Assembly: GCA_006226595.1 (NCBI GenBank)
Contig: SBGP01000101.1
Span: 1 to 64,000, forward strand
DNA length: 64,000 nt
Direction of reading: 5' to 3'
From: Deltaproteobacteria bacterium
GTDB lineage: Bacteria > Myxococcota_A > UBA796 > GCA-2862545
Below the pieces are notes generated by a model, which made no database searches, had not been told where the DNA came from, and saw nothing but the letters and a program-made list of their open reading frames with translations. This document shows positions 31,916-34,919 of this stretch, one piece after another (within the stretch, counting starts at the first letter, position 1; each line of letters begins with the position of its first letter). The position numbers and the translations under genes are program-made.

Positions 31916-32674
31916 CTACGAGACCGGGCGCGACAGCTCGGTGAGCCAGGTGACGTGCCGGAAGTCGAGGCCGCGGTACAGGGCCTCCCCTGGGGAGTCG
32001 ATGTCGGCGACCAGGTAGATCACGCCCATCGCGTGCGCCCGGTACGAGCCGACCGCGGCCAGCACCAGCGCCTGGCCACGTCCCTGGCGGCGGTGGTCCT
32101 CGTGGACGAACACGTTCTGCAGCCGGGCTTCGCGGCTGTCCCAGACCACCGACGTCGTGCCGATCAGCTCGTCGCCGTCGAAGGCGCCCCAGAGCACGGC
32201 GCGCTCGGCGTCGCGCGCGGCCCACAGCTGGTTCAGGTACCAGCGCGTGTAGCTCTCGGTGTCCGGGTCGCGGTCCGGCATCGAGCGCATCGACAGCGCG
32301 AACAGGCCGGCTGCATCGGCCTCGGAGAGAGGGCGGAGCGCGTCGGTCGGCGGGGTCGGGTCCTCCCACATGTCGTGCATCATCACCCGCAGCGTCCGCA
32401 GCTCCGCGCCGTCAGGGACCTCCACGGGCGTGGGCAGGCGGTGTTCCCAGACGAGGAACGCCCGTCCGATGTCTTGCGCGCCGTACGCCTCGTCCCAGCG
32501 TGCAAACCAGGCGGCCGGATCGGTCGGTGGGTCGTCGAGGACCAGCCGGTGCCCGTACCAGAAGTGGCGGCAGTCCGGCGTGTCGCAGCGCACATGGTCG
32601 TCGGCCTCGAGGTAGCGGGAACCGCGCAGGACCATGGCGTCGGTGCGGCAGGCGGGGAGGGTGCGGGACTTCAT
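31916..32674 (-). CDS. GNAT family N-acetyltransferase
   Basis: 252 residues. The acetyl-CoA loop of motif A is VFVHEDHRRQGRGQALV (about residues 200-216), followed by motif B (AMGVIYLVADIDSPGEALYRGLDF). The N-terminal 140 residues contain CDTPDC and HFWYGHRLVLDD and form a second, degenerate GNAT-like half, as in tandem GNAT proteins. The acceptor is unknown. ATG 32674 has no Shine-Dalgarno; TAGCCT on the minus strand ends 6 bases before it. Only 23 bases separate it from the divergent gene at 32698. Confidence 0.85.
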   Translation of the reverse strand: MKSRTLPACRTDAMVLRGSRYLEADDHVRCDTPDCRHFWYGHRLVLDDPPTDPAAWFARWDEAYGAQDIGRAFLVWEHRLPTPVEVPDGAELRTLRVMMHDMWEDPTPPTDALRPLSEADAAGLFALSMRSMPDRDPDTESYTRWYLNQLWAARDAERAVLWGAFDGDELIGTTSVVWDSREARLQNVFVHEDHRRQGRGQALVLAAVGSYRAHAMGVIYLVADIDSPGEALYRGLDFRHVTWLTELSRPVS

Positions 32675-32697
32675 GTGGGTAGGCTATCAGGGGCCTC
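32675..32697. promoter_or_regulatory. 23-bp divergent region with overlapping -10 elements for two leaderless genes
   Basis: TAGGCTATCA spans 32680-32689. On the minus strand TAGCCT (32686 down to 32681) is followed by 6 bases and the GNAT ATG. On the plus strand TAGGCT (32680-32685) or TATCAG (32685-32690) precedes ATG 32698 by 12 or 7 bases. Neither gene has room for a ribosome-binding site of normal quality. Confidence 0.5.
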
Positions 32698-33474
32698 ATG
32701 CGCGTCGTCACCACCACCTGCTCGAACACCGAGATCGTGTGCGCCCTGGGCTGTGCCCACATGCTCGTCGGCGTGGACGAACACTCCGACTTTCCCGAGG
32801 AGGTCGTGTCGCGCCTGCCGCGCGTGGGGCCCGATCTGGGCATCGATCCGGACAAGGTCGCCGCCCTCGAGCCCGACCTGGTCATCGCGTCGTACACGGT
32901 GCCGGGCCACGAGCAGGTCGTGGACGGGCTGATCGCGAAGGGCCTGCGCGTGTTCGCGCCCGAGCCCGTGAGCCTCGCGGACGTGTACCGCGACGTGCGG
33001 GACATCGCGGAGCTCCTCGGGGTTCCGGAGCGCGGCGAGGCGCTCGCCGCCGAGATGGAGGCGACCATCGAGGGCGAGGCGGCGCCAGATCCGAACGGTC
33101 CGCGGGTGCTGGTCGAGTGGTGGCCCAAGCCGGTCATCGTGCCGGGTCGCGACTCGTGGGTGACCCAGCTGCTCGAGAAGGCGGGCGGTGTGAACCCACT
33201 CGCCCACGAGGCGGTGAAGTCCCGGCCGATCACCGACGACGAGGCCGTCGCCATGTCTCCCGAGGCGGTGGTGATCAGCTGGTGCGGTGTGCCGTTCCAC
33301 CGCTACCGCGAGGATGTCGTCACCCGCCGCGAGGCGTGGGCGAACACGCCGGCCCTGCAGGCGGGCCAGGTCCACCGGGTGCCCGAGGCGTTCATGGGGC
33401 GGCCCGGACCGCGACTCGTCGATGGCTTCCGGGCGCTCAAGGCCGTGGTCGAGGCGGCCCGCCAGGCGCGCTAG
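32698..33474 (+). CDS. Cobalamin-binding-type (BtuF-like) substrate-binding protein lacking a signal peptide
   Basis: 258 residues. It has the class III periplasmic-binding-protein layout of BtuF/FhuD: RVVTTTCSNTEIVCALGCAHMLVGVDEHSDFP at the start (in pieces), ALEPDLVIASYTVPG, a long connecting helix, and a C-terminal domain with VVISWCGVPFHRY and the NTPAL...VHRVP strand. These bind cobalamin or siderophore-type ligands for ABC import. No signal peptide or lipobox exists, and no permease or ATPase is near, so the protein is probably cytoplasmic. The start is fixed by homology from residue 2. It ends in a CTAG shared with the sulfotransferase gene. Confidence 0.82.
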   Translation: MRVVTTTCSNTEIVCALGCAHMLVGVDEHSDFPEEVVSRLPRVGPDLGIDPDKVAALEPDLVIASYTVPGHEQVVDGLIAKGLRVFAPEPVSLADVYRDVRDIAELLGVPERGEALAAEMEATIEGEAAPDPNGPRVLVEWWPKPVIVPGRDSWVTQLLEKAGGVNPLAHEAVKSRPITDDEAVAMSPEAVVISWCGVPFHRYREDVVTRREAWANTPALQAGQVHRVPEAFMGRPGPRLVDGFRALKAVVEAARQAR

Positions 33475-34295
33475 CGGGGCTGGGCATCCCGCTGCCGGTC
33501 GCGGGAGAGGACCCCGAACCGGGCCTCCATGTCGGCGTGGATGGCGTTCATCTCGTCGACGAGCTCGGCGGAGAGGGGCCGATCCTCGTGGCAGGTCGCG
33601 TACAGCGCGTCCATCGCGGCGATGGTGCGTGCGTCGACCGCGCACGTGCCCGGCTCCGGCGTGTCGTGCTGGGTGCGGGTGGAGGGCTGGACCGCGGCCA
33701 CCGCCGACGCCACGTCCCCGCCGCCGAGCCAGCGGAACACCCGCTGGATCTCGCGCTCCGGGTCGGCGAGCACGCGGTGGTAGGTCACCCAGTGGAAGGG
33801 GTACCGGCGCGTCGCCACATCGCGGATCATGTCGTAGTGCTCGAACCACCACTCGACCTCGGCCGGGTAGTTCGGGCGCATCGCGCGGGCGCGCTCGAGG
33901 CGGGCCTCCGCGTCGGGTTGCTCGCGGAGCCAGGCCTCTTCCATCGCGTACAGGCGGTTCACGCTGGCGACGTACTCGCGCCAGGGCCGCATCGTCGCGA
34001 TGACGTGCGACACGAAGCCGAACTCGGTGCGCACCAGGCCCGGCACGAACACCTTCACCGCGTGGCGCGCGACCTTGTCCGGGTGCAGGAACTCGCCGGT
34101 CTGCGGGTGCGGGTTGGTCGCGTAGAACACGCCCTGACGGAACGCGCTCTCCCAGAACCCGTGCGGGTTCGCGTCGCGAATCGAGTCGCCCCAGGTCGAG
34201 CTGAAGTCCTTGCCGATGATCGGAAAGCCGCCCGCCCTGAGGATCTGCATCCACATGGACGTGCCGGAGCGCTTGGTACCGGTGACGAGGATCAT
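33471..34295 (-). CDS. Sulfotransferase family protein
   Basis: 274 residues. The 5'-PSB loop VTGTKRSGTSMWMQIL (residues 4-19) is the PAPS phosphate-binding site of sulfotransferases; the 3'-PSB region is around IATMRPWREYVASVNRLY. No signal peptide. Such enzymes move sulfate from PAPS to carbohydrate, lipid or small-molecule hydroxyls; the acceptor is unknown. The TAG shares the palindrome CTAG (33471-33474) with the convergent gene. Upstream TAGGCC lies 6 bases before the ATG and no ribosome-binding site is seen. Confidence 0.82.
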   Translation of the reverse strand: MILVTGTKRSGTSMWMQILRAGGFPIIGKDFSSTWGDSIRDANPHGFWESAFRQGVFYATNPHPQTGEFLHPDKVARHAVKVFVPGLVRTEFGFVSHVIATMRPWREYVASVNRLYAMEEAWLREQPDAEARLERARAMRPNYPAEVEWWFEHYDMIRDVATRRYPFHWVTYHRVLADPEREIQRVFRWLGGGDVASAVAAVQPSTRTQHDTPEPGTCAVDARTIAAMDALYATCHEDRPLSAELVDEMNAIHADMEARFGVLSRDRQRDAQPR

Positions 34296-34385
34296 GGCGG
34301 CGGCCTATCTCGCGGGGTGGGGGAGGGCTCGAAAGCGCTCGGCGCCGCGCGTGGGGGCGGCTATAGCTCCGACTCGGGAGGGCCC

Positions 34386-34919
34386 GTGGTCCCACGCAGC
34401 TATGCCATCTCGCTCGGCGCCGGCCTGTTGCTCTCGGCGTGCACCGGAGACGAACCCGTCGACGACAGCGGCGAGGACACCGGAACCGAACCCGGCGACA
34501 CGGGTGACACCGGCGATACGGGCGAGTCCCCGACGGACGTGGAGCTGTTGGGCAGCTGGGAGGTCCGCGCGACCAGCTACACCACCGCCGATGGCACCGA
34601 GACGTACACCTTCCCGTACTCGTTCGAGGCCAACGGCTACACCTACACGTACAGCGCGAGCCTGCTCGCCGAGAGCGACATGCGCGGCGTGCTCGGGTTC
34701 ACCGAGAGCTACGACATCAACGGCAAGACCGGCTCGTACACCTACGAGAGCCCGTTCACCTGGACCCGCCTGGCGAGCCGCAGCTTCTCGATCGCCTTCG
34801 ACGCGGGCGACTTCGCCGCATTGACCTGCGACATCGATGCGGCCGACGACGACGCGATGATCTGTGCGGGTGTGGACGATCAGCAGACCGAGGTCACGCT
34901 GGAGCTCGTGCGTCCGTAG
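34386..34919 (+). CDS. Lipoprotein of unknown function (Thr/Gly/Asp linker, beta-rich domain)
   Basis: 177 residues. GTG 34386 follows GGGAGG (34377-34382). The signal ends in LLLSAC with TG after the Cys, a clear lipobox. A Gly/Asp/Thr linker (TGDTGDTGDTGE) leads to a beta-rich domain of about 120 residues with repeated Y-T-Y and T-W-T motifs, like lipocalin- or START-type lipoprotein domains that start with LLGSWEV. TATAGC (34362-34367) may be the -10. Two Cys near the C-terminus (LTCDIDAADDDAMICAG) may pair. Function unknown. Confidence 0.75.
   Translation: MVPRSYAISLGAGLLLSACTGDEPVDDSGEDTGTEPGDTGDTGDTGESPTDVELLGSWEVRATSYTTADGTETYTFPYSFEANGYTYTYSASLLAESDMRGVLGFTESYDINGKTGSYTYESPFTWTRLASRSFSIAFDAGDFAALTCDIDAADDDAMICAGVDDQQTEVTLELVRP

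Follow-up and report, generated by a model that had tools for sequence, protein, structure and literature searches.

The 23-base gap that separates two divergent genes in the window (the 64,000-nucleotide stretch of DNA analysed here) is probably a minimal back-to-back pair of leaderless, housekeeping-sigma-type promoters, with TAGCCT-N6 facing left, TATCAG-N7 facing right and a TA step shared between them. On the minus strand, TAGCCT-N6 would start the mRNA of a GNAT-family acetyltransferase gene at its ATG; on the plus strand, TATCAG-N7 would start the mRNA of a Peripla_BP_2 gene at its ATG or within one base of it. The starts can lie only 23 bases apart because both messages probably begin at the start codon. 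The self-complementary TA step common to both −10 boxes would admit one polymerase at a time, in either orientation, and the low basal activity expected of −10-only promoters would probably leave the two genes expressed independently. The features are listed here by position in the window (the last is from elsewhere in the same genome).

31916..32674, minus strand: GNAT-family acetyltransferase gene, 252 aa, ATG at 32674 (PF00583, E = 9.9e-11)
32675..32697, no strand: divergent intergenic gap, GTGGGTAGGCTATCAGGGGCCTC, exactly 23 bases
32680..32685, plus strand: alternative −10 box TAGGCT within the pseudo-palindrome TAGGCTA, 12 nt from the ATG (good hexamer, rare spacing)
32681..32686, minus strand: predicted −10 box TAGCCT, 6 nt from the GNAT ATG (at the genome-wide TANNNT-N6 peak; TAGAGT at equal spacing in the congener G001)
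32685..32690, plus strand: probable weak −10 box TATCAG, 7 nt from the plus ATG (TANNNG is enriched at N5–7)
32698..33474, plus strand: Peripla_BP_2 (BtuF/TroA-like) gene, 258 aa, ATG at 32698 (PF01497, E = 4e-28)
C1:14967-14989, same genome: second 23-bp divergent gap, GTCGCGAGGCTATACCCTGCGGC, with TAGCCT-N6 on the left, TACCCT-N5 on the right and the boxes abutting

In the window sequence the reverse complement of ATG ends at 32674 and the opposing ATG begins at 32698, in exact agreement with the 23 bases counted in the first-pass annotation. That annotation allowed that homologues might place the true start codons further downstream. They do not; both proteins are conserved from residue 1 and both start codons are therefore probably right. 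The N-terminus of the GNAT protein (MKSRTLPACRT) is kept from M1 in both the congener G001 (63% identity) and G012 (40%). For the Peripla_BP_2 protein, most of the listed orthologues, which belong to isolates and MAGs named Myxococcales/Polyangia, Gammaproteobacteria and Planctomycetota, keep MRVVTTTCSNTEI from residue 1. Across genomes with these names the Peripla_BP_2 protein is conserved at 49–80% identity, and an SNTEI motif near its start is well conserved. The PF01497 match begins at residue 3, leaving no signal peptide ahead of the domain, so that the protein is apparently cytoplasmic, an unusual trait in a periplasmic binding protein. Its resemblance is to BtuF and helical-backbone metal receptors, but its score falls below the BtuF equivalog cut-off; ‘cobalamin-binding’ thus denotes a resemblance only.

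The promoter assignment draws on the spacing of TANNNT hexamers across the genome, where genes were called by codon usage on 1.85 Mb and later on 2.25 Mb (~31%) of the 7.23-Mb assembly. Of the 575 leading genes that lack a Shine-Dalgarno (SD) sequence, 45 have TANNNT at a spacer of 6 nt, 22 at 7 nt and 7 at 5 nt, with 0–4 genes at most other spacers; 74 SD-less leading genes have the motif at N5–7 as against 6 SD-led ones. The simple codon-based caller misplaces some starts (e.g. those of both G001 genes), an error that blurs the spacing peak and does not create it. A peak this sharp, 6 nt ahead of the start codons of SD-less genes, identifies leaderless promoters as a real class in this genome. 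Hexamers of the class are TASSCT-like, and on divergent sides TAGGCT (5/91) and TAGCCT (4/91) are the two commonest at leaderless spacing. By spacing, two promoter classes can be distinguished in the 2.25 Mb: the leaderless one (TANNNT 5–7 nt before the start, no SD) and a short-leader one with TANNNT about 15–22 nt before the start and GGAGG four nt before it. Geometrically, both −35 regions would fall within the opposite gene, as suggested earlier, but a −35 consensus was sought in the leaderless set and none is visible.

The left side of the gap fits this class well. The first T of TAGCCT lies 12 nt from the A of the GNAT ATG, matching the genome-wide TANNNT peak position and bearing out the first-pass assignment of this box at the leaderless distance, and the window sequence holds no SD for the GNAT gene. 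TAGCCT-N6-ATG is a typical member of the class, with a predicted transcript start at 32674.

The right side is less clear-cut, and two −10 candidates had been proposed for it. The first T of TATCAG lies 13 nt from the plus ATG and its last base is G, not the preferred and conserved T, which counts against the back-to-back leaderless arrangement. TANNNG is nevertheless enriched at N5–7, where it precedes 38 SD-less leading genes (16, 14 and 8 at the three spacers) against about 2 per position elsewhere. TAGGCT has the better hexamer, at a spacing that is hardly used: TANNNT at spacer 12 occurs in only 4/575 SD-less leading genes, the Peripla_BP_2 gene among them, and spacers N10–14 are nearly empty of TANNNT throughout the sampled DNA. 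TATCAG-N7 is therefore the better reading, its spacer of 7 falling in the used range in which TANNNG is enriched; if it is used, the Peripla_BP_2 transcript is predicted to start at about 32697–32698. The shared promoter core at leaderless distance is accordingly supported on the left and plausible on the right.

TAGCCT (32686–32681) and TATCAG (32685–32690) share the TA step 32685–32686, and with this pair the divergent start sites are predicted to lie 23–24 bp apart; if each start site lies at the optimal 7 bp from its −10, the predicted divergent spacing is 23, a common one in PMC12825309. A T at −18, looked for at each start as a mark of bidirectional promoters, is present on the plus side (32680, if the start is 32698) and absent on the minus side.

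Were TAGGCT used instead, the whole of TAGGCTA (32680–32686) would be common to the −10 candidates of both strands and the predicted starts, 32674 and about 32692, would be 18 bp apart, giving a symmetric bidirectional promoter with a right-hand leader of about 6 nt. TAGGCTA pairs −11A and −7T of the two strands reciprocally, 18 bp is the commonest spacing (PMC12825309, PMC10268837), and TAGGCT is, as noted, the commonest leaderless-spaced hexamer on divergent sides. We nevertheless regard this symmetric arrangement as unlikely, given the 4 SD-less leading genes with TANNNT 12 nt from the start against 45 at N6. The fully leaderless version, a symmetric 19-bp gap, also occurs nowhere in this genome; as a sequence pattern alone it is found at four places in 21 family genomes. 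Still less probable, to a degree that makes it distinctly doubtful, is that the gap holds the GNAT promoter only and that the Peripla_BP_2 promoter lies inside the GNAT gene. AGGGG, 4 bases ahead of the plus ATG, is a possible wobble match to an SD and the only SD candidate for this gene; AGGGG-N4-ATG corresponds in position to the genome-wide GGAGG-N4 peak, and could act as a weak SD if transcription began further upstream. No TANNNT, however, ends 15–22 nt upstream of the plus start, where the leadered promoters of this genome have theirs, and the sigma-70 two-hexamer and terminator scan of the gap region returned no match, promoter matches included.

The congener bears on both sides of the gap. 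G001 (JAGSGY010000127.1, MAG GY13CH_bin.7) is the single congener compared; the same-family relatives are MAGs named Myxococcales, Deltaproteobacteria or Proteobacteria, and among them only G001 has the divergent GNAT/Peripla_BP_2 pair. Its surroundings are partly those of the window, a TtcA-like gene following the pair in both; at 33471–34919 the window carries two genes more than G001 between the Peripla_BP_2 and TtcA-like genes, sulfotransferase-like and putative lipoprotein judging by their translations. The gap in G001 measures 43 bp and aligns poorly, whereas the flanking coding ends align well, so the 23-bp length, whose conservation had been put forward as a check, is not kept in this sister species. 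On the GNAT side G001 retains TAGAGT-N6-ATG, and the left leaderless promoter spacing is hence conserved. On its plus side a possible SD, GGAG, stands a short way ahead of the ATG, and N5–7 holds no TA box; the type of the right-hand promoter is therefore not conserved, which counts against a leaderless right side and would suit a Peripla_BP_2 promoter inside the GNAT gene. The −10 overlap is not conserved base by base, and the polymerase footprints in G001 would still overlap.

Among 319 divergent pairs in the 2.25 Mb, the shortest gaps are 17, 18, 23 and 23 bp, followed by 44 bp. The 17- and 18-bp gaps have a GTG start on one side and no −10 box, and of the divergent gaps below 44 bp only the two of 23 bp have TA boxes at leaderless spacing on each side. 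When 23-mers are drawn from divergent intergenic DNA, about 0.3% carry TANNNT (left) and TANNN[TG] (right) at N5–7; the back-to-back boxes are thus more than chance. The second 23-bp gap lies between class-I-glutamine-amidotransferase-like and D-cysteine-desulfhydrase-like genes (read from translations alone). A pattern search for the back-to-back geometry over the whole genome found 5 places, of which the two 23-bp gaps are the clear divergent gene pairs. The architecture recurs in this genome but is rare. Family-wide, most loci returned for the 23-bp pattern do not fall between divergent genes. Judged by codon score only, coding sequence flanks the pattern on either side at the two loci in this genome, at one locus each in G001, G011 and G020, and, doubtfully, at G000:C76. 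In G001, C146:1595-1623 (CATGGGCGCAGCGTATCAGGTGGTCTATG) is another candidate 23-bp back-to-back gap between two coding frames, and there too TATCAG stands on the right.

The first-pass annotation held that two polymerases could not occupy the gap together; the geometry implies as much, and PMC12825309 says the same of bidirectional promoters. Of the annotation's further proposals, mutually exclusive or co-regulated genes, the first does not gain support: in the five E. coli bidirectional promoters tested, basal transcription was too low for competition, and repression of the partner appeared once one direction was substantially activated (PMC12825309). By the same token, mutual exclusion of the GNAT and Peripla_BP_2 genes could arise only if one direction were strongly activated. 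We consider it very improbable that the gap is a regulated switch in which the promoter in use shuts off the other and the genes take mutually exclusive states. Overlapping −10 boxes that cannot take two polymerases would permit such a switch, but basal non-competition and the unconserved 23-bp gap in G001 argue against it, a search for known RNA families around the gap found none, and the functions of the two proteins offer no reason for one. Equally improbable is that selection has made the gap a toggle, with the one TA common to both boxes enforcing one-at-a-time use and so coupling the acetyltransferase to the signal-less BtuF-like protein. Under the back-to-back leaderless pair that we favour, the two genes would not be expected to compete.

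The gap shows how compactly two genes can pack when both use leaderless promoters, and the analysis provides computational evidence for the leaderless TANNNT class in this high-GC lineage. With both −10 boxes held in 23 bp, it would also offer a clean natural system for testing competition for polymerase between weak leaderless promoters.

Bidirectional promoters built on pseudo-symmetrical −10 elements are an established class (PMC12825309, PMC10268837; Warman, Grainger and colleagues). Their divergent start sites are most commonly 18 bp apart, with 10 and 23 bp also common, and opposing polymerases are unable to bind at once (PMC12825309). The gap resembles those of E. coli and other prokaryotes in that −10 boxes overlap or are shared across strands, two mRNA genes are served and the predicted spacing is 23–24 (or 18) bp. 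Unlike in the E. coli examples, both transcripts are predicted to be leaderless and the whole putative promoter would fit inside the 23 bp between start codons. Transcription of leaderless mRNAs from a TANNNT near the ORF is established for Deinococcus and has been predicted for further high-GC groups (PMC12340547, PMC3160421). In the leaderless class of this genome, as in the leaderless genes of Deinococcus-Thermus and Actinobacteria (PMC3160421, PMC12340547), the first T of TANNNT lies about 12 bp from the start, an SD is mostly absent and there is no −35 consensus; the present case differs in its high-GC lineage and in that the boxes form a divergent overlapping pair. The gap thus joins two known features, the bidirectional promoter and the leaderless TANNNT, and is probably a compact bidirectional promoter of a known kind.
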